51,796 bases of DNA, from positions 1 through 51,796 of IMG/VR virus record IMGVR_UViG_3300045136_000338; one strand, 5' to 3'. Under the pieces are notes generated by a model, which made no database searches, was not told where the DNA came from, and saw only the letters and a list, made by a program, of their open reading frames with translations. Origin of the DNA: a virus. A program made the position numbers and the translations under genes. Shown here in pieces: positions 3,433-51,244 of the stretch; the first letter of the stretch is position 1; the number at the start of each line of letters is the position of its first letter.

Positions 3433-5036
3433 CCGCGACGATCGCCACCCAGGGCCTGACCGCGCGCGTCCAGTTCACCGCCCCCTTTGACCTGGACAGC
3501 TACGCCACCTTCCTCCGCTGCAAGGGCCTGCCCGAGCACGAGTTGACCTACGACTGGGAGACGGACGCCTACACCCTCACCACTCCCGCCCGCTTCGCGC
3601 CCATGCTGGGTCGTGCCGACCTTGCGCCGGCGGAGGCGGCTCCACTGCCTCTCCCGTCGCATCTGTTCGACTACCAGGCGGCGATCATCGCCCGTGCGCT
3701 TGCCGCCCGCCGCTACGCGGTGTGGGCAGACACCGGGCTTGGTAAGACCGCGATGTTCCTGGAGTGGGCGCGGCAGGTGTCCGCCTCAGGCGGACTCACG
3801 GGCGGGCGGGTGCTCATCCTCTCGCCGCTTCAGGTCATTGAGCAGACGCGCGCCGAGTGGACGCGCTGGTATCCCGATGCCGCACCGATCGCCCGGTTGG
3901 ACAACCGCGAGGAACTGGCCGCGTGGTGTCTCGCCGGCGCGGGTCTGGCCATCTGCAACTACGAAAAGCTGACGGCGGGCGTGCTGCCCGAGTTGCGCCA
4001 CCTCGCCGGGCTGGTGGCCGACGAAAGCTCGATGCTCAAGGCACGTGGCGGGGTCGTGAAGTGGAACCTCATCAAGAGCGCGAAGGGCATCGAGTACAAG
4101 CTCTCCTGCACCGCGACCCCCGCGCCGAACGACCCGATGGAGTACGCCTCCCAAGCGCGCTTCCTCGAAAAGATGCGGACCGAGGGCGAGGTGCTGTGGA
4201 CCTTCTTCTCGCGTGATAAGCGCGGCGAGTGGAAGGTCAAACCCCACGCCGAAGCCGCGTTCTACCGCTTCATGGCGAGCTGGTCCATCTACCTGCGCGA
4301 CCCGGCGCGGTACGGCTGGACCGACATCCTCTCCACGCTCCCGCCGCCGGTGTACCACGAGGAGCGGCTGCCGCTGACGGATGAGCAGCGCACGGCGATG
4401 CACACGCTTCAGGTGCAGGCTGGCACGGGCTTCTTCGGCCACGAGCGGATGGGGGTGAAGCAGCGGGCCAAGTTCGCCCAGCTCGCGCGCGGCTTTCTGT
4501 ACGAGAACGGGGTGGCACGGCGCGTCGCAGCGTTCAAGCCGGCGCGCGTGGCGGAACTCGCCTGGCACGAGGTCGTTCTGGGGCAGTCCACCATCATCTG
4601 GACGGTCTTCGACGAAGAGGCGGCGATCATCGCTGAGCACCTGACCGGACTGCCGGCGGTCCGCTTCGTCGCCCTGGACGGGCAGATGAGCGACACCGCG
4701 CGGGCCGCCGCGATCGCCGGGTTCAAGGACGGCACCTTCAACGTGCTCCTGACCAAGCCGCAACTCGCCGGCTACGGCCTGAACTTCCAGCACTGCCGCG
4801 CGATGGTGTTCTCCGGCCTCGATGACAGCTTCGAGCGCATGTATCAGGCGGTGCGCCGCGCCTACCGCTTTGGGCAGACGGAGGCGGTGCAGGTGTACGT
4901 GCCCTACGTGCCGGAGTTGGAGGGGATGATTTTCGAGAACGTCCAGGCCAAGGAAGCACGCTTCCTCACGGACGTGGCAGCAATGGAGCAGCACTACATC
5001 GATGCGGTGAAGGAGAACCATCATGCAGTGGCCTGA
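3429..5036 (+). CDS. SNF2-like superfamily 2 DNA helicase/ATPase
   Basis: The two RecA-like lobes are complete. Motif I is ADTGLGKT (residues 100-107), motif II is DESS (198-201) and motif III is TATPAPND (228-235). The C-terminal half carries a motif V-like GLNFQHC and motif VI QAVRRAYRFGQ, the arginine-finger signature of SNF2/Swi2 proteins. The family uses ATP to translocate on or remodel double-stranded DNA. In phages it often sits in replication/recombination modules or beside modification genes. It is translationally coupled to the methyltransferase before it, so a paired modification or anti-restriction role is possible, though replication or repair is equally plausible. Confidence 0.88.
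   Translation: MTATIATQGLTARVQFTAPFDLDSYATFLRCKGLPEHELTYDWETDAYTLTTPARFAPMLGRADLAPAEAAPLPLPSHLFDYQAAIIARALAARRYAVWADTGLGKTAMFLEWARQVSASGGLTGGRVLILSPLQVIEQTRAEWTRWYPDAAPIARLDNREELAAWCLAGAGLAICNYEKLTAGVLPELRHLAGLVADESSMLKARGGVVKWNLIKSAKGIEYKLSCTATPAPNDPMEYASQARFLEKMRTEGEVLWTFFSRDKRGEWKVKPHAEAAFYRFMASWSIYLRDPARYGWTDILSTLPPPVYHEERLPLTDEQRTAMHTLQVQAGTGFFGHERMGVKQRAKFAQLARGFLYENGVARRVAAFKPARVAELAWHEVVLGQSTIIWTVFDEEAAIIAEHLTGLPAVRFVALDGQMSDTARAAAIAGFKDGTFNVLLTKPQLAGYGLNFQHCRAMVFSGLDDSFERMYQAVRRAYRFGQTEAVQVYVPYVPELEGMIFENVQAKEARFLTDVAAMEQHYIDAVKENHHAVA
3780..3794. repeat. Dispersed 15-bp palindrome, copy in the helicase gene
   Basis: TCCGCCTCAGGCGGA (17 bp with GTC...GAC extension). Encodes Ser-Ala-Ser-Gly-Gly in a loop after motif I. 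Confidence 0.7.
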
Positions 5037-5571
5037 GAAACCAACCTGTCACGGCGAGCGCGACCCGTATCTCGGCGAGGTGGTCGTATGGCGGCCGGCG
5101 ACCCCCGAGGGCCGTCCATATGACAAGGACAGTCCCAATCTTGGCCCCTACGCTGAGCCGTTCCGCACCTGCTCCTTCTGCGGTTCCATGCACCCAGAGG
5201 ATCTCCTCAACTGGATGCAGCGCGGCGCTCAGGTCCACGGCTCCGACTGGAAATACGGCTGGCCCCACAAGTTCTATGTCGATAACATCCCCAATCCCAT
5301 CGCCGGGCGTGAGGTGCAAAAGGGGAGCCACCCCGTGCCGGACCTGGACCCGGAGAGCGGGGGGCGGTGGGTTCAAGAGCCGACGCTCGGTCCAGCGCCG
5401 GAGCACACACATGGCAAGTGGTACAACGACCACCTGCTTGACGCGGGCTACGACGACGAAGCCTGGAATTCCTTGGTTGAGGCGCTGGCGGCGCGCACCG
5501 GCATTCACTTCTTCCGCGACGCAGAGAAGGGGTTGATGTACCGCGCACCCTCCCGGGGGTATCAGCGATGA
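5023..5571 (+). CDS. Conserved hypothetical phage protein with CxxC motif
   Basis: A 182-residue protein with one clear zinc-knuckle-like half (CSFCGSMHPEDLL near residue 50) and otherwise rich in Trp, Tyr, His and acidic residues. No membrane segment or signal is present. The start is supported by AAGGAGAA just upstream and lies 14 nt inside the helicase gene. The stop overlaps the next start (ATGA). I do not recognise a defined family. Its place between the helicase and the modification genes suggests an accessory to DNA metabolism, but that is only context. Confidence 0.7.
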   Translation: MQWPEKPTCHGERDPYLGEVVVWRPATPEGRPYDKDSPNLGPYAEPFRTCSFCGSMHPEDLLNWMQRGAQVHGSDWKYGWPHKFYVDNIPNPIAGREVQKGSHPVPDLDPESGGRWVQEPTLGPAPEHTHGKWYNDHLLDAGYDDEAWNSLVEALAARTGIHFFRDAEKGLMYRAPSRGYQR

Positions 5572-27763: not shown

Positions 27764-28366
27764 ATGGGTCTGTTTTCAGGCACCGCAAACAACGTCATCG
27801 GCGGGCCGGTGGAGGTGTTCATCACCGATTACTCCTTCGCTGCACCCACGCGCCTGTCGGAGATCTTCAACACCTCCACCTACGCGGCGAACGCGACCTA
27901 CGGGTGGGAGTCGATCGGCCTCACCGAAGAGCCGACCACCACCGGCATCGAGGCGGATGCGGAGGAGTGGCGCTCGGAGCAGTTCGGCCGCTTCCTCACC
28001 GTGCCCACCGACTACGCCGGCGATGTCACGTTTGTGGCGATGGAGTACAAGCAGGCGAAGAAGCTGGAGTACAACGCCCTCGCCATCGTCGGTGCGGAGC
28101 CGGTGGTGGGTGAGAAGCGCACGGACTACACCACCAAGACCTCGTTCCCGCAGAAGCGCGTGGCGCTCGCGCACGTGGACCGCTTCGGCAAGATCCACGT
28201 GCGTGTGCTGCCGAACGTGCAGTGGGGCGGCGACCGCATCGAGACGACGTTCGGTCGCGGGCGGCCGTTCACGCAGCCGATCACGATGAAAGCCTACGGC
28301 GACACCAACCTGCTCAATGCCACGGACGGCAACGCCATCATCATGTACGACATTGACCAGGAATAG
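27764..28366 (+). CDS. Major tail (tube) protein
   Basis: The 200-residue beta-sandwich-like product (MGLFSGTANNVIGGPVEVFI...) is preceded by AAGGAGGT, a very strong SD fitting an abundant virion protein. It lies directly before the frameshifted chaperone pair, the standard siphovirus order. It likely polymerises into the tail tube. Confidence 0.75.
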   Translation: MGLFSGTANNVIGGPVEVFITDYSFAAPTRLSEIFNTSTYAANATYGWESIGLTEEPTTTGIEADAEEWRSEQFGRFLTVPTDYAGDVTFVAMEYKQAKKLEYNALAIVGAEPVVGEKRTDYTTKTSFPQKRVALAHVDRFGKIHVRVLPNVQWGGDRIETTFGRGRPFTQPITMKAYGDTNLLNATDGNAIIMYDIDQE

Positions 28367-28435
28367 GCCGTTTCGGAGCGTCATAGCTTCAGAACGGCGC
28401 ATCGCATCCAGACCCGACACGGAAGGATGGACGAG

Positions 28436-29137
28436 ATGACCGCCACCAGCGACCCCGCGACGCAGACAGCCCCGGCCCCGCCTGGGGCTGTCGCGCGTCA
28501 CCGCATCCCCGGCGCGCACCACATCGACGACCTCACCCTGGGCGGCAGCACCGTGCGACTGGCCGTGCATACGGGCGCGGGCATCCGTGAGTTCCGCCGC
28601 CTGATGAGCGAGGACCGCTACGAGCGGCTGTTGGGCTTCGGCCCATCGCTGAACGACGGGTTGTCGGATGCCGATTACTCCGCCCGTGCGCTCGTGGGCG
28701 GAGCACTCGCCCTGGAGGACTACGCCACACTCGCGGAGTTGCTCACCTTCCTGCTCGTGGACCCGGTGTCAGAACACGAGGTGCAGGAGGCGTCACCCGA
28801 AGAGCTGGTGGCCGTCATCCGGAGCTTCCTCGGCAAGTCCGGGCTGGAATGGCTCAACCGTGTCCTAAAAAACTTGGCAGCGTCGCTGACGACGGCGGGG
28901 ATTATCACGCTGGCGGCAGCGACGCAGGCGCAGCAGACGGGGACCGAGAGCGAGAACCCGACCTCTTCGACCGCTTTGCCAGAATCCGGCGTGACCCCGC
29001 CGACGAGCGCTGGCAGCGAGAGCGCTGGCAGCGCGCCGTTCACCGTGCCCGATGGTTCGGAGAGTCCGTCGATATCTGGGACAGCATCGTCATCGACCTC
29101 GCAGGGCCGCCGACGTACACGCCGTACCCGGTCGTGA
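28436..29137 (+). CDS. Tail assembly chaperone, upstream (G-type) product
   Basis: ATG 28436 has GGAAGGA at 8 nt; ATG 28427 would sit inside the SD. The first ~146 residues are helical and structured. After the slippery site the 0 frame becomes Ser/Thr/Pro-rich (TSSTALPESGVTPPTSAGSE) and ends in an Arg-rich tail, typical of unused coding past a recoding site. The product coats the tape measure during tail assembly. Confidence 0.8.
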   Translation: MTATSDPATQTAPAPPGAVARHRIPGAHHIDDLTLGGSTVRLAVHTGAGIREFRRLMSEDRYERLLGFGPSLNDGLSDADYSARALVGGALALEDYATLAELLTFLLVDPVSEHEVQEASPEELVAVIRSFLGKSGLEWLNRVLKNLAASLTTAGIITLAAATQAQQTGTESENPTSSTALPESGVTPPTSAGSESAGSAPFTVPDGSESPSISGTASSSTSQGRRRTRRTRS

Positions 29138-29397
29138 TGTGGGGCCTGCCCTTCCGTGAGGTGTTGCTGCTGTGGGTCCACACCATGCACTGGCAGCGCG
29201 GGCAGGAGGCGGACCGGCTGGAGTTGCACGCGATGATGGCGGGCACCGCCGGCATGAAGGACACGTACAAGGCGCTGATGGCGCAGGCGCACGAGTTGCG
29301 GCGGCCGATCGTGCCCCCGCGCATTCCGGATGAGGAACTGTTGCCGTGGGAGCGGCTGGCACGGAAGCGGACGCAGGAGATGTACCGGGATGAGTAA
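28436..29397 (+). CDS. Tail assembly chaperone G-GT frameshift fusion
   Basis: After a -1 shift at 28867-28873 reading continues from 28873 as LGSVADDGGDYHAG..., giving ~146 + 174 residues. The downstream part has a well-formed helical domain (RFARIRRDPADERWQRERW, LHAMMAGTAGMKDTYKALM), unlike the 0-frame tail. The fusion is the minor product that binds tail tube subunits to the tape measure. The tape measure gene itself is 2.4 kb downstream, because the second accessory region is inserted between. Confidence 0.85.
28867..28873 (+). promoter_or_regulatory. Slippery heptamer A_AAA_AAC for -1 frameshifting
   Basis: The heptamer AAAAAAC lies in frame as CTA AAA AAC, the strongest -1 slip sequence known in bacteria. 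A -1 slip joins the G frame to the downstream frame without any stop between, as in lambda G/GT. Confidence 0.9.
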
Positions 29398-29587
29398 CAC
29401 CACCAGAGAGTCGGAGTCAGATGTGCTGAAGACGGGGCGGGTATCGGCGATTGTCTGGTGGCTTGTTCGCAACCAGGACGCCATCAACAGCGCGACGATC
29501 GGCTCGTTGCGCTTCGACTGGGGCATGGATGGCGTCATCAAGCCCCAGCTCACCACGCACTTCAAGCAGTTCACACCGAAACGTTAG
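29390..29587 (+). CDS. Small hypothetical protein (65 aa)
   Basis: ATG overlaps the end of the chaperone frame by 8 nt. The product (SDVLKTGRVSAIVWWLVRNQ...) is alpha/beta with no recognised domain. Its stop overlaps the stop of the convergent HNH gene by 4 bp. Confidence 0.5.
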   Translation: MSNTTRESESDVLKTGRVSAIVWWLVRNQDAINSATIGSLRFDWGMDGVIKPQLTTHFKQFTPKR

Positions 29588-29874
29588 CCATCCCACACCT
29601 GTTCCCGCCAATCGGGACCAATAATGCCGTCCCGTAATGCCGCCGCGATCATACCCCGGTGGCGGGGATCGGCCCGCAACGTGTGACAGCGGCGGCAGAG
29701 CGTTCGGAGGTTGCCGAGTGCATTGCTGCCGCGCTTGCCACTGACGATGTGGTCAATGTGGCAGGCCGTAAGTAGGAGCGGGACGGCACAGCGCACACAC
29801 CGCCGACCATCCCGCTCCCACACCCGTCGCCGGAGCGCCTCCCAAACCTCGCGCGGTGGTCGATGCTTCGGCAT
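29584..29874 (-). CDS. HNH endonuclease downstream of the pentamer array
   Basis: A compact 96-residue HNH protein: C26/C29, HIDH (39-42) and C60/C63 are the zinc and catalytic elements (RRCVRC...ACHIDHIVSG...NLRTLCRRCH). Stand-alone HNH proteins of this size are homing-type or packaging-accessory nucleases. ATG 29874 abuts the array of 5-bp units on its 5' side. Longer reading frames through the array translate it into 5-residue periodic nonsense, so this start is preferred. It is convergent with the tail genes. Confidence 0.85.
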   Translation of the reverse strand: MPKHRPPREVWEALRRRVWERDGRRCVRCAVPLLLTACHIDHIVSGKRGSNALGNLRTLCRRCHTLRADPRHRGMIAAALRDGIIGPDWREQVWDG

Positions 29875-30066
29875 CCCTGTCCTGTCCTGCCTCGCCTCAC
29901 CTGACCTGGCCGCGCCATGCGACGCCCAACCCAGCCACACCATGCCGCGTATGGCGTCCGGACGGCAGTCTCCCACCCACCGGAACCCTCGTCTTGTCTT
30001 GCCGTGCCCGACCGGACCCAACCATGCCATGCCTCACCCGGCCATACCAGACCTTGCCTGGCCACA
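29875..30066 (-). repeat. Two blocks of phased degenerate 5-bp units (GGNNN on the minus strand)
   Basis: On the + strand CC (occasionally TC) recurs every 5 bp. Block one runs from 29875 to about 29949 (15 phases, one CG exception). Block two runs from about 29987 to 30066, with 13 consecutive perfect CC phases from 30002 to 30062. Only the dinucleotide is fixed; the other three bases vary. The blocks are out of phase and separated by ~37 bp containing the palindrome CGTCCGGACG (29955-29964). The array is the 5' leader of the HNH gene and follows the RAMP-like gene in the same direction. In RNA it would read (GGNNN)n. Confidence 0.9.
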
Positions 30067-30071
30067 TTCGG

Positions 30072-30662
30072 CTACTCCATCAGGCGGACGTCAAAGCGTT
30101 CGACGGTGAAGCGGCCAAAGCCAATGTTACGGCCGTCACCCAGCCCCGAAAAGCGCCCGGCATCGCGCACGGCGGCCTCCATCTCACCGCGGTGGACGAT
30201 GGTGCGATCCCAGAGGATCGTGCAGGTGGTGGACCAGCCGGGCGCGGCCGCCACCCGATAGCGCACGTCGCGCCCCTTGGTGGCCGGGTTCCGCACGGAA
30301 CGGATGTCGAGATAGACCGGCGCATCCCGGTCGGTGGGTAGCGGCTCCTCCGGCACGTAGCGATCGATGAGGATGCGATCATCCATGACTTGCAGCGTGG
30401 CCGCGACCGCAGATTGAATGCTACCACGACCCTTCTTCGTGTATTTCGCGCCATCGCGGATGCAGGAGAAGATGTACTCTGGTTCCAGGAAGAGTTGTCG
30501 GTCGGCGGTCATCAGCACGGTGCGCCGCCACTCCTCCGGGTCATTACCCGCCACCCCGGTCTGCTCTTGCTTTTCCAGGGGGATGGCGTCTGGCCCGAAG
30601 TGGTGCCAGAGCAGCGGCCGGATGCCGCGAATCTCCACCGTCGCCGTGATGATGTTGCCCAC
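30072..30662 (-). CDS. Conserved hypothetical protein with RAMP-like glycine-rich C-terminus
   Basis: GTG 30662 has AAGGAGG at 7 nt, a decisive SD. The product (196 aa) opens with a strand (NIITATVEIRGIRPLLWHHF) and ends with the glycine-rich GLGDGRNIGFGRFTVERFDV (173-192), which recalls the G-rich loop and final strand of Cas5/Cas7-type RAMP folds. I recall a mobile-element protein family with this layout and no known function. No Cas genes or CRISPR array are near. RNA binding is possible but unproven. Confidence 0.6.
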   Translation of the reverse strand: MGNIITATVEIRGIRPLLWHHFGPDAIPLEKQEQTGVAGNDPEEWRRTVLMTADRQLFLEPEYIFSCIRDGAKYTKKGRGSIQSAVAATLQVMDDRILIDRYVPEEPLPTDRDAPVYLDIRSVRNPATKGRDVRYRVAAAPGWSTTCTILWDRTIVHRGEMEAAVRDAGRFSGLGDGRNIGFGRFTVERFDVRLME

Positions 30663-30684
30663 TCTATGCCTCCTTGTCCAAGAG

Positions 30685-30939
30685 CTAGGTCCACAAGCTA
30701 TCCAGGCGGCCTTCCGCGTCATCGAGCGCAGCGGTGGCCGTGAGTAAGGTCGCGACCGCAATCCCTAGCTGGTCCCGTGAGCCTAGGCCCAGCACCACCT
30801 GTTCGTGCGCGGCGATGCAGGCGCCCCACGCATCCGCCAACCGCATCCAACAAGCGCGCATCTCGTGAACAGTCCGCGTGGCCTCAGCGTGCAGGTTCTC
30901 GATGACCGTCATTTCTGCTGCGGTATGGACGTTGAACAT
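30685..30939 (-). CDS. Small helical hypothetical protein
   Basis: ATG 30939 with AGGAG 9 nt upstream; an earlier TTG would collide with the SD. The 84-residue product is helical (NLHAEATRTVHEMRACWMRLADAW...). Unrecognised. It overlaps the end of the upstream minus gene by 31 nt, so the pair are co-translated. Confidence 0.55.
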   Translation of the reverse strand: MFNVHTAAEMTVIENLHAEATRTVHEMRACWMRLADAWGACIAAHEQVVLGLGSRDQLGIAVATLLTATAALDDAEGRLDSLWT

Positions 30940-31118
30940 CGCGGCCAACTCCTAGCCCGTTCCGCGCAGCACCGACAAAGCGTGCCGTCGTATCGGGGTA
31001 CAAACCACGAACGCCGCCCGTGGCTGGCGCGGTCGGTGATGCGGATGCCGCAAAGGGTGCGGTTGCCCGTCACGTAGTGATCCACCATCGTGCTCGCGCG
31101 GCAGAGTCGCTGATGCAT
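30909..31118 (-). CDS. Small Cys/His-rich protein, first gene of second minus operon
   Basis: ATG 31118 follows GGAGG. The 69-residue product carries TLCGIRITDR and TLCRCCAERAR clusters, possibly a zinc site. It is the first gene after a near-consensus promoter (31153-31181). Function unknown. Confidence 0.55.
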   Translation of the reverse strand: MHQRLCRASTMVDHYVTGNRTLCGIRITDRASHGRRSWFVPRYDGTLCRCCAERARSWPRCSTSIPQQK

Positions 31119-31152
31119 TGTGCTGGCCTCCGTACCTAACTACATCGCACTG

Positions 31153-31181
31153 AATCTAACACAACCTCATAGACAAGTCAA
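31153..31181 (-). promoter_or_regulatory. Sigma70 promoter for second minus operon
   Basis: Minus strand: -35 TTGACT (31181-31176), exactly 17 bp, -10 TAGATT (31158-31153). The intergenic stretch is clearly AT-richer than its surroundings. It drives the run 31118 to 29584. Confidence 0.75.
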
Positions 31182-31223
31182 CACGAACTCACAAAATGGT
31201 ACGGAATCTACTGCCACCTGCTG

Positions 31224-31229
31224 TATAAT
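31224..31229 (+). promoter_or_regulatory. -10 TATAAT for the HTH gene
   Basis: A consensus TATAAT lies 24 nt before the HTH gene's ATG. No good -35 is visible, so it may need an activator. It is divergent from the TTGACT/TAGATT promoter. Confidence 0.5.
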
Positions 31230-31252
31230 GAGGCGTGGTCGTGGAGGCGGTC

Positions 31253-31447
31253 ATGAGTGAGGAGGGACGAGCGTTGCTAACGCTGGGTGAGGCAGCACGC
31301 CGTCTGCGCGTGCATGAGAACACACTTCGGAAGTGGGCAGATGAGGGTCGCGTGCCAGTCGTGCGTCGGCCTGGCGGTGGTGGCTATCGCAAGTTTGAGG
31401 CGAGTGTGATAGAGCGCCTTCGGCGCGAGATGGGCCTATCCGATTAG
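31253..31447 (+). CDS. MerR/excisionase-like HTH regulator
   Basis: ATG 31253 with GGAGG at 6 nt is preferred over GTG 31235. The 64-residue product is a single HTH with wing (LTLGEAARRLRVHENTLRKW, VVRRPGGGGYRKFEASVIERL). It is divergent from the second minus operon, mirroring the 22117 gene and the first cassette. Probably an autoregulator of the accessory operon. Confidence 0.72.
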   Translation: MSEEGRALLTLGEAARRLRVHENTLRKWADEGRVPVVRRPGGGGYRKFEASVIERLRREMGLSD

Positions 31448-31680
31448 TCGTCCGCTTTGGTCAACACATAGATACATCCCACGATGGCGAGCGTGCAGAC
31501 AACGAGGAATGTTCGCTCTGCATAGAGGCTGTCGTTGAGGAGGCCACGGGTTACAGGGTCGGACCCTGAGGCGCGGTCATTAAGTGTCGTGATGTAGACA
31601 GCGAGGATGATGAGAATGCCAGTCAGCCCCGCCGCAACTCGCAGCGGTGCGCGCCATTCGGGGCGAATCCACCGCCGCAT
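31444..31680 (-). CDS. Small two-helix membrane protein
   Basis: Two hydrophobic segments (about 15-33 and 57-74) with a short polar loop, and a basic N-terminus. It is convergent with the HTH gene (4-bp overlap). Size and topology resemble small holins or superinfection-exclusion proteins, but nothing specific identifies it. A lysis role is less likely, since a holin-like gene accompanies the endolysin at 43.7 kb. Confidence 0.55.
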   Translation of the reverse strand: MRRWIRPEWRAPLRVAAGLTGILIILAVYITTLNDRASGSDPVTRGLLNDSLYAERTFLVVCTLAIVGCIYVLTKADD

Positions 31681-31701
31681 GATGGCCCTCCCAGATAGCT
31701 G

Positions 31702-31730
31702 TTCAACACTGTTTTACGATGTGGTAGTAT
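31702..31730 (+). promoter_or_regulatory. Candidate late promoter before the tape measure gene
   Basis: TTCAAC (31702-31707), 17 bp, TAGTAT (31725-31730). It is followed ~28 bp later by an intrinsic terminator and then the tape measure start, an arrangement like lambda pR'-tR'. Confidence 0.45.
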
Positions 31731-31757
31731 ACCCGTAGCGACCCCACCGGAACACAC

Positions 31758-31791
31758 CGACGGCCGCCCGATTTCGGGTTGGTCGTTTTTT
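31758..31791 (+). terminator. Intrinsic terminator in the tape-measure leader
   Basis: Stem elements CGAC...CCCGA (31758-31771) and TCGGG...GTCG (31774-31785) are followed by six T (31786-31791). It stops upstream transcription or attenuates the promoter just before it. Confidence 0.7.
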
Positions 31792-31835
31792 CGTGCCTCC
31801 CGGCACGGAGCGCCCAACCCCGCTGGGACGCAACC

Positions 31836-34800
31836 GTGGCCGGCGCGATCGAACAACTCCTGCGCCTGGTGACGAAGGCCGATACGGGGGACCTGGACAA
31901 GACGGTCAGGTCCCTCGATGGCGTCGATCGTGCCGCCAAGAAGACCGGGGATTCCTTCGGCTCCCTCTCCAAGAAGGGCGCAGAGTTCGGCGCTGGCCTC
32001 ATTGGTATCAACTCCGCACTTGAGATCACCAAGAAGGCGCTGGAAGCCAGCGTTGGCCAGGCCGCCAGTTTTGAGCGCACCCTCAACGTGCTCAGAGTGC
32101 AGGCGAACGCCACCGCCGGCGAAGTCCAGCAGATTTCCCAACGCGCGAAGGAACTGGGCAACGACTTGACGTTGCCGGGTGTGTCGGCCTCCGACGCTGC
32201 CGCCGCGATGCTCGAACTGAGCAAGGCGGGCCTCTCCATCCGCGACACGATGACGGCGGCGCGGGGCGCGCTGGCGCTGGCCAGGACCGAGAACATCGAC
32301 TTCGGCACGGCCGCGCAGATTACCGCCTCCCAGCTCAACGCCTTCCAGCTCGCCGGCATTGAGGCCACGCGGGTGGCCGACCTGCTCGCCGCAGGCTCGA
32401 TCAACAGCCAGGCCAGTGTGCTCTCCCTCGGCCAGGGAATGCAGCAGGCGGCGGCCATCTTCAACGGCGCGAACCAGGACATCGAAGACCTCGTGACGTC
32501 GATGGCCCTGATGGAGCAGGCCGGCGTCAAGGGCAGTGATGCTGGCACCTCGCTCAAGACGGCCGTGCTCGCGCTCCGCGCGCCAACGAACGAAGCCGCC
32601 GCCGAGATGAAGAAGCTCGGCATCGAGGTGCGGGACGCGGACGGGCAGATGAAGAAGATGCCCGCCCTGGTCGCGGAGTTCACCGGTAAGCTCGGCGGGT
32701 TGTCGGCGGCGCAGCGGGATGCGGCGCTCAAGACCATCTTCGGCAATGACGCCATCCGTGCCGGCGAGATCGTGCTGACGCGCGGCGCGGAGAGCTACAA
32801 CCGAATGCGCGAGGCGGTCACGAAGTCCGGGGCAGCCCAGGAACTCGCCGGCGCGCAGGCCAAGGGTCTGTCCGGGTCGCTGCAAGGCTTGCAGTCGCAG
32901 GTGGAAACCATCGCGCTCACCGCCGGCCAGAAGCTCGTGCCCAGCCTCACGCAGGTGGTGAACACGCTCAGCGCGGCGCTTGCCAGCGATACCGTCCGCA
33001 CCTTCGGCGTCGGTCTCGAACAGGTCATCGGCACCCTCGGCCGGATAGCCGAGGGCTTCGCTGCCATGCCCGAACCGGCACGGGCGGCGGCGCTTGCCGT
33101 TATCGGCCTCACCGGGGCGCTCTCCGTCCTCGCCGCCCACCCGGTAATCGGCACGCTGACCGTGCTGACGGCCGGCCTCGTGTTGCTCGCGGGCAAGATC
33201 GAGGAGGCCAATAACAAGACGGCAGGCAGCACCGAGGAGCTGTATCTGCGGGCACAGGCGATCGTCGCCAGCGGCATGGGTCAGGCGAAGGACGCCGTGC
33301 AGCAGTACACGGCGGAACTGAACCGTCTTGACCAACAGAATCTCACCACGGCCCAGAAGGTCGAGTTCCTGCGCGCCCGCCATGAGGAACTGAACAAATC
33401 GGTCAACGACAGTGCCGCCGAGTTCATTTCGCTTGCCGAGCGCAAGCGCGCTACGGGCGAGGAAGCGGACAAGCTCAGGCAGAGGATCGTTGATGAGTCC
33501 GTCCAGATGGGCGTACTCGAACAGCTTGCGAACAAGCTGGGTTATACCCTGTCCACCAACGTCAAGAGCGGCGCAACCGACGCACAGCGGGCGCTAAGCG
33601 GGATTGGTGACGCAGGAAAGGATGTCACGAAGGCGGAAACGCCGCTGAACGACCTCCAAACCTTGCTTCAGGCCATCTTCAAAGATGGAAAGGAAGTCCA
33701 ACGGCTCATCCGCGACATCATCTCGCCACCCACCCAAGTCGAGGCGAACGTCACCGCCCAGCTCGCCAACATCGACGCCGCCCTCAAGGGCGTGGGGCTG
33801 GCGGCCCGTATCTCCGGCGACGAAAAGGCGTACTGGATCGCCAAGGCGCGCGAACTCCTGCAAGCGGCGGGGCTTGAGACAGATGTGCTCACCCGCGCGA
33901 ACGCCGTCATCGACCAGGTGGCGAAGGGCAACCTTTCCGCTGCTGATGCCAGCAAGAAACTGACCGACATCCTCAAGGGCAGCATTGAGACGCGCGAGGC
34001 GATCGTCGAAGCGGAGTCTGCCACGCGCGAGGCGGCGGGCAAGAGCGCCGAGGCGCAACTCGGCCTGGGGCGCTCACTCGATACGGTACGGCAAGAGGCA
34101 CAGGACGCAGCCAACGTCTATCGCGGCATCTTCCCGCAGGCCCTCGGCGAAGCAGGGCAGGCGGCGCAGGACGTGGGGCCGCGGCTGCGGGACATCCTCT
34201 CCCCAGAGTTCGTCGCGGACCTTGAGCGGCGGGCGAAGTCGCTGGGTCTGACCGTGCCTGCTGGCATGGCAGCAGGGATTCGGGAAGGCAAGCAGGACGC
34301 CATCAACGCCGCCCTCGACCTCGCGTCCGCCGTCGAAGGTGCCGCCCGCGAACGGTTGCGGGCACAGTCACCCTCGCAGGTGTTCGTGCAGATCGGTGAT
34401 GACGTGGTGTCCGGTCTGCTCATCGCCTGGCAGCGGCAGGAGGGGGTTGTCACCCATGCCCTCGTCAACCTGTTCGACCGCGGCATTGCCGTAGTGGAAG
34501 CCTCGGCGGTGCGGCTGGTGCAGACCTTCGACCGCACTGTCTCCACTCTCGCCGACTCCATCGCCAAGACCGCCGAGGCAGGTCGCGCCCTGCGCCTGAT
34601 GGAGCAGGAGGTCTCACGGCTCGATACCGCCATCGCGGACCTGACGCTCAAGCTCGCGTATGCCGAGCCGTACTCCGCGTACCGCGCCGAGCTTGAACAC
34701 CAGAAGCAGGTGCTTGAAGCATGGCGCGGGCAGGTGCAGGCGAGCATCGGCGTGTTGCAGGCCCAGCGCCGCGAACTCGACCTCACCCGGAGCGCGCTCG

Positions 34801-36287
34801 ACGGGTATACGCAGGCGTACATCGACGCGGTGACGGGGGCGCTGCGCGCGCAGCAATTTGGCCCCGGCGCATCGCTGGTGACGCTGCTCACCGGCGACCT
34901 CACGAACCCGGAGACCGGCGCGCGTATCTCCGCCGCGCTCGAAGCGCTGATCCAGCAGGCCATCGCCGCCGGTGTGCCCGCCGCCGCCGCGTTGGGGTCT
35001 GCCCTCCGCGATGCCGTGGCCACTGCCCTGGCGAATCCTACCGCTGAGAACATTCAGGCGGTGCTGAACGGCCTTGAGCACCTGTTTGAGCAGATGCGCG
35101 AGCGGGCGGCGCTTTCGGCCAAGAATCTGAACGAGGCGATCCAGCAAAGCTTGGACCTCAAGCGGTTGGCGAAGGAGGTGGGCGAGGACGGGGCGCGGCT
35201 GGTGGAGGAACTGGGCAAGGCGCTGAAGGACGGCGGGCAGGTTGCGGTTGCGGAGGTTGGTCGCATCGCTGCCGGCATCCTCGCCCAACTGGAGGAACTG
35301 CCCGACGACATCGGTGGGCCGCTGGCGGCGGACCTGCGGCGGGCGATGGAGGAGTTTGCCGTCAACCCCACCGAGGACGGCCTTGAGCGCATCCGCGCCA
35401 TTCTTGCCAAGTCGAAGGGCGTGCTCGAAATCCTGCCCCGGAATCTGCGCGAGCTGAAGCCGGACGTGCAGGCGGCCATCCAGGCGATCGTCGATCAGTT
35501 CCTCGCGGGCCAGCTCTCCATCGAGGAGGCGGTGGACGCCATCGCACGGGCGACCAAGCGGGCGCAGGAGGAGGCGAAGAAGGTGGAGGAGGCGGCCCGT
35601 CGCGCGGCGGACGCGGCGCGGCAGGCGGCGAGCGGGGCCAAGTCGTACACCACCACCACCCGCTCCCTTGGGGGTACGCAGACGGCCGTGCACAACTACG
35701 GCGGCGTCCGCGGCGCGACGCTCTATACCTTCACCGACGAGGAGGGGTTTTCGACCGAGCACCTGTCGCTCACCAAGGAGATTCTGGACGCCTACGGCGG
35801 CAACTATGAGGCGGCGCGGCGGGACATCGAGCGCCGCGCCCTCGGCGAGTTCGGCCACGCCTTCGTGGGTGAAGGCGGCAAGTTCGAGGAAGAGGACGAG
35901 GACGAGGAGGACGACCGCCCCCGGTCCAGTAAAGACAAGAAGAAAAAGGGCAACGGGAAAGACAAGGGCAAGAAATACGCGGCGGGCCTGGCGATGGGGC
36001 CGATTCGCCGCCCGACCATCCTCATGGACGAGGGCACGGGCATACCGTTCGGGTCGATGGCGGAGCGCGGACCGGAGTGGATTGTCAACCAGGCCCAGAT
36101 GCGTGAGATGACGGCACGGGCGGCCGCCGCACCGAGCATCAATATCACCGTGCCCATCACCGGCAACTTCCTTATGGACGAGGACGCGGGCCAGCGGCTC
36201 GCCATCCAGCTCGCACCAGCGCTCTCCACGGCCATCGCCGGGCTGCGGGAGGCGCGCTATGGCAGCACGCCGCTGGGAGCACGATAA
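31836..36287 (+). CDS. Tail tape measure protein
   Basis: About 1483 residues; the length sets the tail length, about 220 nm by the usual 0.15 nm per residue. The N-terminal part (~110-330) matches the TP901-type core (MLELSKAGLSIRDTMTAARG, GMQQAAAIFNGANQDIEDL, GNDAIRAGEIVLTRGAESYN). A hydrophobic stretch lies near 415-460. The rest is coiled coil, with a basic/acidic low-complexity patch (EEDEDEEDDRPRSSKDKKKK) near the end. GTG 31836 is chosen because earlier in-frame codons fall inside the terminator hairpin. A 55-bp repeat copy begins at its final base. Confidence 0.92.
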   Translation: MAGAIEQLLRLVTKADTGDLDKTVRSLDGVDRAAKKTGDSFGSLSKKGAEFGAGLIGINSALEITKKALEASVGQAASFERTLNVLRVQANATAGEVQQISQRAKELGNDLTLPGVSASDAAAAMLELSKAGLSIRDTMTAARGALALARTENIDFGTAAQITASQLNAFQLAGIEATRVADLLAAGSINSQASVLSLGQGMQQAAAIFNGANQDIEDLVTSMALMEQAGVKGSDAGTSLKTAVLALRAPTNEAAAEMKKLGIEVRDADGQMKKMPALVAEFTGKLGGLSAAQRDAALKTIFGNDAIRAGEIVLTRGAESYNRMREAVTKSGAAQELAGAQAKGLSGSLQGLQSQVETIALTAGQKLVPSLTQVVNTLSAALASDTVRTFGVGLEQVIGTLGRIAEGFAAMPEPARAAALAVIGLTGALSVLAAHPVIGTLTVLTAGLVLLAGKIEEANNKTAGSTEELYLRAQAIVASGMGQAKDAVQQYTAELNRLDQQNLTTAQKVEFLRARHEELNKSVNDSAAEFISLAERKRATGEEADKLRQRIVDESVQMGVLEQLANKLGYTLSTNVKSGATDAQRALSGIGDAGKDVTKAETPLNDLQTLLQAIFKDGKEVQRLIRDIISPPTQVEANVTAQLANIDAALKGVGLAARISGDEKAYWIAKARELLQAAGLETDVLTRANAVIDQVAKGNLSAADASKKLTDILKGSIETREAIVEAESATREAAGKSAEAQLGLGRSLDTVRQEAQDAANVYRGIFPQALGEAGQAAQDVGPRLRDILSPEFVADLERRAKSLGLTVPAGMAAGIREGKQDAINAALDLASAVEGAARERLRAQSPSQVFVQIGDDVVSGLLIAWQRQEGVVTHALVNLFDRGIAVVEASAVRLVQTFDRTVSTLADSIAKTAEAGRALRLMEQEVSRLDTAIADLTLKLAYAEPYSAYRAELEHQKQVLEAWRGQVQASIGVLQAQRRELDLTRSALDGYTQAYIDAVTGALRAQQFGPGASLVTLLTGDLTNPETGARISAALEALIQQAIAAGVPAAAALGSALRDAVATALANPTAENIQAVLNGLEHLFEQMRERAALSAKNLNEAIQQSLDLKRLAKEVGEDGARLVEELGKALKDGGQVAVAEVGRIAAGILAQLEELPDDIGGPLAADLRRAMEEFAVNPTEDGLERIRAILAKSKGVLEILPRNLRELKPDVQAAIQAIVDQFLAGQLSIEEAVDAIARATKRAQEEAKKVEEAARRAADAARQAASGAKSYTTTTRSLGGTQTAVHNYGGVRGATLYTFTDEEGFSTEHLSLTKEILDAYGGNYEAARRDIERRALGEFGHAFVGEGGKFEEEDEDEEDDRPRSSKDKKKKGNGKDKGKKYAAGLAMGPIRRPTILMDEGTGIPFGSMAERGPEWIVNQAQMREMTARAAAAPSINITVPITGNFLMDEDAGQRLAIQLAPALSTAIAGLREARYGSTPLGAR

Positions 36288-46220: not shown

Positions 46221-47972
46221 ATGCGTACCCCCCGCCCCCACCCCCGCCGGTTCGCTCCCACTTGGCTGCTCATCCTCGGTGTCATTGCGCTTGGCAGCGT
46301 CGGGATTACACGCGACGGCCGCGGCGTTCAGCCCGCGGCGCTCTCGGTGAACGCCCAGGCTGTCCCGTCCTGCGGCCTGCCCTTCAATCCCCAGGGTCTC
46401 ACCTGGGCATTCTGTGAGACGTTTGACGCGCCCTCCCCCGGCGGCCGTGGGGGCGAGCTCGACGATGCGCGCTGGAGTTTCGCGCGGTTGTCGCAGCAGT
46501 ACAATCCCGGTCAGGGCCTCATCAACGCCTGGCGGCCGGTCAACCGCGTCTTCTGCCTCATCACGGACCCCGCTGCCCCTGAGAACGCGAACAAACTCCC
46601 TCCTGACGACAGCTTCATGTGCGGACCCCAATTTACCGACCCGGTCATGGGTGGCCCGGAGTCCAACCACTGGATGGAGGCCTTCTACGACGACGGCGAC
46701 TACGCTTACACCTCTGCCCGCATCAACCAGCCCTTCGACTTCGCCGGCCGCACCGGCACCTTTGCGGTCACCGTGGACGCCAAGACCGGCGGCAATCACG
46801 GCTGGTGGATCGAACTGTGGCTGACCGATGAGCCGACTGTTGCCCCACACAACGCCAACCCTTCGACCGTGGCCTACCCGCGCAATGGGCTCGGTCTGCG
46901 GTTCATGGACCGATGCGGTGGCGCCAACGATGAGCGGGTCAATGTGGAGCAACTCGTCCTTGTGCGCAACTACGCCGAGACCACCCTCCCCATGACGCGC
47001 CCGGCCGATGGCTGCATCCTCACCAAGCCCGACCGGCACAACCACCTCGAAGTGCGCGTCTCCCAGAACCGCGTGGAGGTCTGGGGGAGCGACCGCGGCA
47101 TCGATGGGTGTGGCGGCCAACCCCAGTGCACCGGCCACTCCACCTTCCGCCTCATGGCCGCCTCTGACAATCTGAACCTGCCCTTCACCCGTGGGTACTG
47201 GCACGTCCAGCACGCGCAGTACAACGCCGAGAAGTTCTGCGCGGACGGTGGCTCCAACCCCGCCACCTGCGGCCACCAAACCTATCACTGGGACAACATC
47301 GGTTTCGATGGTCCCATCCTGCCCGCACTGCGCTCCTACAGCCACCCGGACGCCATGACACCCGCTCCTGGTGGTGGGGTCAATCTCGGCTACTGGCTTT
47401 CTGGCACGTCCCGCGCCTTCTCGTTCACGAACGTGGACACCGCTGGCGCAAGCCGTGCCTGGCTCGCCCTCAACCTGTGGCCACTGGTGCCCGTGCAGTA
47501 CCGGGTCAATGGTGGCGCGTGGCAGACCTGGACGCATCCGGGTCCGAACAACGGCTGGGCATGGCATAGCACGGTCATCCCGCTGTCCGCAGCACTCCTG
47601 CGCGCCGGCACGAACACAATTGACCTTGCGGCTCCCGATGGCACTGCTGTCGCAAACGTGGACTTGTTGGTCGAAGGTACGGGTGGAAGCGCGACCACGA
47701 CACCCAGTCCGACGGCAACCCCCACGCCGACGGTGACGGCTACGCCGACGCCAACGCTGTCACCAACGCCAACGCCGTCACCAACGCCGACCGCGACGCC
47801 CACCGCGTCCCCCAGTCCGACGCCTAGCCCGACGCTCAGCCCGACGCCCACGGCCACACCGTCACGCTGCCGGATCACCGTACGAAATGCGAGCGATACC
47901 GCGTGGGTGGCGCGTAATGGGGTGCTCGCGCCCCATGCGGGCGGGATGGTGTGCGTGGTGGCAGGAGCATGA
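46221..47972 (+). CDS. Secreted lectin-like protein with Thr-Pro linker
   Basis: A signal peptide or anchor lies at ~14-35 after a basic N-terminus ([16 protein letters not shown]). The body (~45-390) is beta-rich and resembles concanavalin-like glycan-binding modules (WTFCETFD-like start, [30 protein letters not shown]), followed by a second beta module. A ~60-residue TPTPT-type linker leads to a small C-terminal domain. Such linkers are typical of secreted bacterial glycoside hydrolases and adhesins. An exported protein in a fibre cluster is odd; it may alter the host surface. I see no sure catalytic residues. Confidence 0.7.
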
Positions 47973-50461: not shown

Positions 50462-51244
50462 ATGCTTCGCCCGCTCATGGGCCGCGGCTCGGCGCTTTTC
50501 CTCCCCGGCCGGCGCGCCGCCACGACGACGCCGGTCTCCCTGGGCGGCGGACTCACGATGGCGGGCAACCTCGACATCGCTGTCGTCAAGAACCTCGGCG
50601 GCGCACTCACGACCTCCGGCCAGGTCATCGAGCAACCCCAGATGGCGCTCGCGGGCGCCGTGCTCACCGCGGGGACGCTGCAATTGGAGCCGCGTCTCAG
50701 ACTGGGTGGCGCGCTCACCACGACGGGCGCCGTCACGGCGCTGAGGGTGATTCTGGTAGCGGTGGCGGGTACCCTCAGTGGGACTGGACAACTCATCACG
50801 CGGGTGCAGAAGGCGCTCGCGGGCGCCGTGCTCACCGCGGGGACGCTCATCAAGCGGCCGCAACTCCGCCTCGGCGGCGCACTCAGTGAGGCGGGAGCGC
50901 TCATCAAGCGGCCGCAACTCCGCCTCGGCGGCGCACTCACGACCTCTGGCCAGGTCATCGAGCAACCCCAGAAGGCGCTCGCGGGCGCCGTGCTCACCGC
51001 GGGGACGCTGCAATTGGAGCCGCGTCTCAGACTGGGTGGCGCGCTCACGATGGCCGGAACGCTGGGGAAGGTGGTGTCCAAGCTGTTTGGGGGCGTACTT
51101 GCCGCGGCCGGGTCGGTGCTGGCGCTCATCATCACGGACCAGGACCCGGACATCCAGTCACCCACGCGCTTCGATGTGGCGGACGACGGGCGCACCTTCT
51201 TCGACGTAGCGGACGATGGCAGGACTTGGTTCGACGTGCAGTAG
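50462..51244 (+). CDS. Repeat adhesin/fibre protein
   Basis: 260 residues built from ~20-27 residue units of the form LAGAVLTAGTL-x(5-8)-LRLGGALTTSG. DNA copies are nearly identical: ~126 bp at 50593-50718 recurs at 50923-51048 with two differences (offset 330), and a 54-bp tandem lies at 50844-50951. The end carries FDVADDGRT twice. Low-complexity Gly/Ala/Leu repeats of this kind occur in phage fibres and may bind glycans. The repeats can recombine to change length. Confidence 0.7.
   Translation: MLRPLMGRGSALFLPGRRAATTTPVSLGGGLTMAGNLDIAVVKNLGGALTTSGQVIEQPQMALAGAVLTAGTLQLEPRLRLGGALTTTGAVTALRVILVAVAGTLSGTGQLITRVQKALAGAVLTAGTLIKRPQLRLGGALSEAGALIKRPQLRLGGALTTSGQVIEQPQKALAGAVLTAGTLQLEPRLRLGGALTMAGTLGKVVSKLFGGVLAAAGSVLALIITDQDPDIQSPTRFDVADDGRTFFDVADDGRTWFDVQ
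50593..51048 (+). repeat. Near-identical DNA repeats within the adhesin gene
   Basis: A ~126-bp direct repeat (two differences over its length) is separated by 330 bp, with a 54-bp tandem between. The core GCTCGCGGGCGCCGTGCTCA occurs three times, beginning near 50647, 50816 and 50979. Confidence 0.85.

Follow-up and report, generated by a model that had tools for sequence, protein, structure and literature searches.

The window analysed here is the whole 51,796-nucleotide stretch of IMG/VR virus record IMGVR_UViG_3300045136_000338, which belongs to a tailed phage encoding terminase, portal and protease. A leftward locus, flanked by small ORFs and by the tape-measure gene that runs rightward, is composed of the following features:

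29584..29874 (-): small HNH endonuclease gene, 96 aa, likely an accessory gene (vap); Pfam HNH, 3.1e-9
29875..29949 (-): candidate guide RNA B (vrRNA B), 15 units; direct reading and array scanner
29950..29986 (-): spacer or putative 3' tail of vrRNA A, with a predicted hairpin that includes the palindrome CGTCCGGACG
29987..30066 (-): candidate guide RNA A (vrRNA A), 16 YNNGG-type units; direct reading and array scanner
30072..30662 (-): vipr, 196 aa, GTG start after AGGAGG; assigned by phrog_4652, profile and AF2 model
30685..30948 (-): 87-aa ORF on the upstream side of vipr, part of this leftward series of genes
31153..31181 (-): promoter-like TTGACT-17-TAGATT with TG before the second hexamer; consensus scan only
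31779-36287 (+): tape-measure gene

The locus would be read leftward in the order vipr, vrRNA A, vrRNA B and HNH gene, and the promoter-like site is a possible start of this operon. Family searches with the 87-aa ORF gave no convincing match, and the neighbours are tail genes, the HNH gene and ORFs without an assigned function, with no cas genes among them. Divergent from the leftward run, a small ORF at ~31250-31448 (+) has, by its sequence, a MerR/excisionase-type helix-turn-helix look (TLGEAARRLRVHENTLRKWADEGRVP). Two other repeats lie elsewhere in the window, namely a 54-bp unit present twice with about 95% matching (50837-50939) and a tract of period 6/12/18/24 (ACGCCNACGCC..., 47709-47851) near the end of ORF 46221-47972.

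The first-pass annotation had described positions 29875-30066 as two blocks of GGNNN pentamers between a RAMP-like gene and an HNH gene, with a period unrelated to codons and the remaining bases free to drift, and the neighbours, the non-codon period and the freedom of the other bases are all confirmed. On the plus strand, 13 consecutive CCNNN units occupy 30002-30066, while the second block has a 6-unit CCNNN run from 29890 and single mismatches interrupting its other units. The longest period-5 run is 13 units against 4-7 when the whole window was shuffled 200 times with its dinucleotides preserved, so shuffles of equal composition, which had been proposed as the check, do not reproduce the phasing; and when periods 3 to 12 were scanned, a comparable run was found at period 5 only. 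The GG phase thus stands, but the unit had been framed wrongly: read on the minus strand it is YNNGG, with a pyrimidine at position 1 in 31/31 units across both blocks. The phase difference between the blocks, which had also been noticed together with the palindrome between them, amounts to 2 bases.

Block A (30066->29987) consists of 13 variable units, whose NN bases are GT CA AA CT AT CG GA AT AT TG CC CG AC, followed by the terminal units CAAGA CAAGA CGAGG; block B (29949->29875) has 12 variable units with GC AT GT TG TG GT AT GC CA CA GA GA, followed by CAGGA CAGGA CAGGG. The block ends are near-identical (CAAGACAAGACGAGGG and CAGGACAGGACAGGG) and share the element CARGACARGAC-(R)AGGG. The stretch between the blocks is predicted to fold into the hairpin UCCGG(GUGGG..CUGCC)CCGGA at -19.0 kcal/mol (ViennaRNA fold) and may form the 3' tail of vrRNA A. 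The terminal units of vrRNA B directly abut the HNH start codon, and any tail following them would overlap the HNH start or coding sequence. No near-identical, regularly spaced direct repeats of the kind that make up a CRISPR array were found in 29600-30300, and Rfam families gave no match in 28000-32000.

The first-pass annotation knew of no described element of this form, but a preprint of April/June 2026 describes YNNGG-repeat guide RNAs beside an ancestral RAMP protein (PMC13142463). This system, Viral Interference Programmable Repeat (VIPR), combines the mainly phage-encoded RAMP protein Vipr with vrRNAs built from 9-16 YNNGG units. Each unit pairs with DNA through its NN bases and passes over one base of the target, and the type II example comes from Escherichia phage SUSP1, KT454805 (PMC13142463). 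Further hallmarks of VIPR are a thumb domain of Vipr that touches the guide, an invariable structured 3' tail behind the repeats, a vap gene whose product acts on DNA, and vrRNA that co-purifies with Vipr. The product of 30072-30662(-) matches phrog_4652 at 5.7e-14, the family to which SUSP1 Vipr itself is assigned at 1.4e-96; it is 28% identical to SUSP1 Vipr (BLASTP, E=3e-10), and a SUSP1-free family profile built from 42 relatives detects the SUSP1 Vipr structure, PDB 36pp, with E=1.4e-9. Among Foldseek entries up to 8 April 2026, which did not include 36pp, the AF2 model (pLDDT 89.5) is closest to Csm chains of type III and RAMP chains of type VII (E about 5e-9). The model agrees with the RAMP/RRM fold, glycine-rich loop and size of about 20 kDa expected of a Vipr, and G170, G174, R179, G184 and R185 are invariant across 43 sequences, the glycine loop likewise. 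Pfam RAMPs alone gave a sub-threshold match to this product (0.045), and no close Vipr was found in the INPHARED phage collection. By homology and modelled fold, the gene is identified as Vipr, a RAMP-superfamily RNA-binding protein, and the array very probably represents a pair of genes for guide RNAs belonging to a VIPR system that the phage carries.

How general this arrangement is can be seen in the relatives of Vipr, of which 27 were fetched from viral contigs and 21 from bacterial and MAG contigs (Bacillus, Paenibacillus, Chloroflexales, Desulfosporosinus and others). An array lies beside Vipr in 25/27 viral loci, with 0 matches in shuffled controls given to the same scanner, and at SUSP1 vipr this scanner reports four arrays, one upstream and three downstream, agreeing with the published number. 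Across 51 arrays, positions 4-5 are 91-94% G and positions 2-3 are mixed. Loci with homologous Vipr genes thus retain the period, as the proposed comparison of homologous loci asked, while their NN bases vary widely. The arrays of relatives are also found upstream of vipr, downstream of HNH or on the opposite strand. A separate scan of IMG/VR for twelve CCNNN units returned at least 120 stretches; among the matches listed, most were degenerate arrays rather than simple repeats, the GC content of the contigs varied widely, and several contigs had multi-block arrays with phase breaks of 4 nt or similar. Long multi-block CCNNR arrays at L091:8640-9050, on the minus strand of L118, at L095:4600-5060 and at L040:1850-2150 shift phase regularly, after every 8-16 units, at CCTG or CCCAT-TAG and, from this pattern, are probable multi-guide arrays. 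One Vipr relative, L146, has no YNNGG array and instead carries GTCNN pentamers upstream of its HNH gene at ~5000-5060 (GTCAT GTCCC GTCGC GTCTG GTCTC GTCAA...), which suggests a variant constant motif replacing GGY.

Among 46 loci, comprising the window and 45 relatives after near-duplicate and partial loci were dropped, an HNH gene lies on the vipr strand, usually adjoining, in 43, and its catalytic residues D41, H42, N51 and H64 are invariant. Since it is kept in so many loci, the HNH protein is likely the accessory nuclease of this clade, that is, a VIPR accessory protein (vap), and cleavage by this partner seems somewhat better than an even bet. In the Firmicutes loci L211, L212 and L219-L223 (Bacillus, Paenibacillus), the HNH gene begins right at the stop codon of vipr or slightly ahead of it, an arrangement that suggests translational coupling.

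These observations bear on the explanations offered earlier by the first-pass annotation. Had the array been a DNA site for the HNH protein, whether a homing target or a packaging or recombination signal, the adjoining gene would be in keeping with it, given that small HNH proteins can be homing endonucleases; however, the HNH gene travels with Vipr, and the variable bases of relatives differ so widely that, apart from the phased GG, no DNA site is conserved, leaving this reading with hardly any credibility. The earlier proposal of a regulatory leader, taken here to control the HNH gene through two-layer G-quadruplexes (GG-N3) formed one after another along the mRNA or the displaced strand, is compatible in principle with a GG every 5 nt, which would permit two-tetrad structures, and the array is positioned as the HNH leader with its last GG-rich units as a possible ribosome site. 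It nevertheless does not explain the position-1 pyrimidine in every unit, the conserved Vipr neighbour, or the placement of relatives' arrays relative to vipr and HNH and on the opposite strand.

What distinguishes guide RNAs from these alternatives is whether the variable bases spell something, and in guide A they do. With a 1-nt skip it reads GTx CAx AAx CTx ATx CGx GAx ATx ATx TGx CCx CGx AC, and the two guides have the following counterparts in the window:

33696..33734 (+): self-like match to guide A within the carrier's tape-measure gene, VQRLIRDIISPPT; 10/13 dinucleotides, skip 1
29447..29482 (+): candidate match to guide B (AIVWWLVRNQDA) within small ORF 29390-29587; 7/12, in frame, skips on wobble bases

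The guide A match is in frame, with each skip at codon position 3; 1000 permutations of guide A reached at most 8/13 against the real 10/13, and skips of 0/2/3 gave 6/7/6 of 13. Because the target is read as NNx with the skip on the wobble position, guide A spells a peptide, V-H/Q-K/N-L-I/M-R-D/E-I/M-I/M-C/W-P-R-T, which on comparison with VQRLIRDIISPPT is the carrier's tape-measure protein in diverged form. A G-quadruplex leader leaves this coding match unexplained and predicts nothing about the two variable bases that decode to a protein-coding target, which makes it very improbable. A pentanucleotide microsatellite without function, decayed or selfish, could grow by slippage as tandem pentamers do, and pure repeats such as (CCTTG)n occur in some viral contigs, but drift would not keep GG and Y while randomising NN, the genome matches depend on unit order and are lost on permutation, and the co-occurrence with Vipr would be left over; I consider this reading scarcely tenable.

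For guide B the match at 29447(+) is only a lead because 29% of permuted guides equal 7/12, a score that is not significant alone; guide B has no significant target in the window and none in 400 genomes of the Oscillochloris phylum. An exact 9-unit match of guide B in L154 was treated as chance, since the longest ORF there puts the skips off the wobble bases. Neither guide had a perfect target in the collections searched. For guide A these were IMG/VR (units 1-9 and 4-12) and GTDB genomes (units 2-11), sub-patterns of guide A had no target in 13 Vipr-bearing genomes, and the 400 Oscillochloris-phylum genomes held no guide A target within 3 mismatches. Searches for relatives of ORF 29390-29587 and of the tape-measure segment likewise gave none.

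The same skip rule can be examined in other Vipr-bearing records, and here the window and its relatives allow the 1-nt-skip rule of the preprint to be tested independently (PMC13142463). Across 24 VIPR records, own-genome matches of >=8/10 with skip 1 are seen for 6 guides, compared with 1/0/0 for skips 0/2/3 and with a mean of 0.4 and a maximum of 3 for skip-1 matches of permuted guides (200 permutations). One of the six comes from the array at 34419-34493 of L140 (record G015), whose guide decodes to QMASKGKVQAEEL, a conserved tape-measure motif present in the tape-measure proteins of both SUSP1 and G015 (guide peptide Q-I/M-A-S-K-G-K-V-Q-A-E-E-L), and whose 20-base pattern occurs in 27 viral contigs, in 27/27 of them within wobble-frame ORFs encoding the same peptide. 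For G013 and G017 the guides fit the antisense strand of major capsid genes, and a guide of G018 fits a major tail gene, in each case with the skip at codon position 3. A cross-record test of 353 guides against 2.1 Mb is weak because the excess at skip 1 is only slight (19/353 at >=8/9; controls 10, 10 and 14). In five of the six own-genome cases the match lies 256 bp to 8.1 kb from the array, which is closer than uniform placement would give (Fisher p about 0.02), a comparison confounded by the clustering of structural genes. The decoded guides share a theme, namely structural genes of the virion akin to those of the carrier itself, which suggests that core virion genes of related phages (tape measure, major capsid, major tail) are VIPR targets; the main text of PMC13142463 does not mention targets of this sort. 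Since the skips fall on wobble bases, the guides would read protein more than DNA and so could match many relatives.

Since the guide A peptide is a diverged form of the tape-measure protein of its carrier, guide A is most likely directed at the corresponding gene of a related phage that competes with it, and I hold such a rival's homologous gene to be the probable target. Alternatively, guide A could dampen the phage's own tape-measure gene as a form of self-regulation, and that gene is indeed the best match among the sequences compared. However, its three mismatched dinucleotides are all non-synonymous, most natural targets described in the preprint match perfectly and sit on other elements (PMC13142463), and the G015 guide fits the SUSP1 tape-measure gene (12/15) better than its own (10/15), which together make self-regulation quite unlikely.

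Under the preferred reading of a VIPR system directed at a competitor, we infer that the vrRNAs are transcribed and processed to ends such as those given above and assemble with Vipr into an RNP. Vipr subunits would line up on the vrRNA, one per YNNGG unit, keeping the constant GGY bases out of pairing, while the two N bases of each unit would pair with double-stranded DNA and one target base per unit would be skipped. Guide A would then bind the tape-measure gene of the competing phage, leading to silencing or, together with the HNH partner, to cutting, and the three non-synonymous differences would partly spare the carrier's own gene. A more speculative extension, which is unlikely as matters stand, is that HNH-armed VIPRs are RNA-guided, homing-like kin-exclusion elements: their guides would target homologues of the carrier's virion genes, often near the VIPR locus, an HNH cut would disable the gene of a co-infecting relative, and repair from the VIPR-bearing genome would spread the locus.

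Compared with known systems, the locus has in common with SUSP1 VIPR a phrog_4652 Vipr, YNNGG vrRNAs beside vipr, a phage-borne setting and a 1-nt-skip code with wobble skips, and its unit counts (13+3 and 12+3) fall within the published 9-16. In contrast, the SUSP1 partner is vap1 (phrog_5926, not HNH) whereas here it is a 96-aa HNH nuclease; SUSP1 has four vrRNAs and a pseudoknotted tail whereas here two vrRNAs lie between vipr and HNH; and SUSP1 targets a satellite or lysogeny regulator whereas the guide here leads to a gene for a structural protein of the virion. Types III and V of VIPR resemble the present locus in having a predicted DNA nuclease as accessory, according to the main text of the preprint, but are enriched in host defence islands, unlike this phage locus (PMC13142463). 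A VIPR locus with a linked HNH nuclease is now placed in a high-GC phage, and the linkage points to a putative RNA-guided DNA cutter made from two very small proteins. The RAMP proteins of CRISPR types III and VII (Csm3/Cas7) share the fold, the glycine-rich loop and a periodic disruption of guide-target pairing, although identity in structural matches is about 10-17%, the protein here is smaller, no CRISPR array or cas genes lie nearby and the code is one of non-contiguous dinucleotides. Pentanucleotide-phased RNA bound by a repeated protein array is also familiar from the (G/U)AGNN repeats bound by TRAP, which are alike in their pentamer phasing but differ from YNNGG in motif and function.
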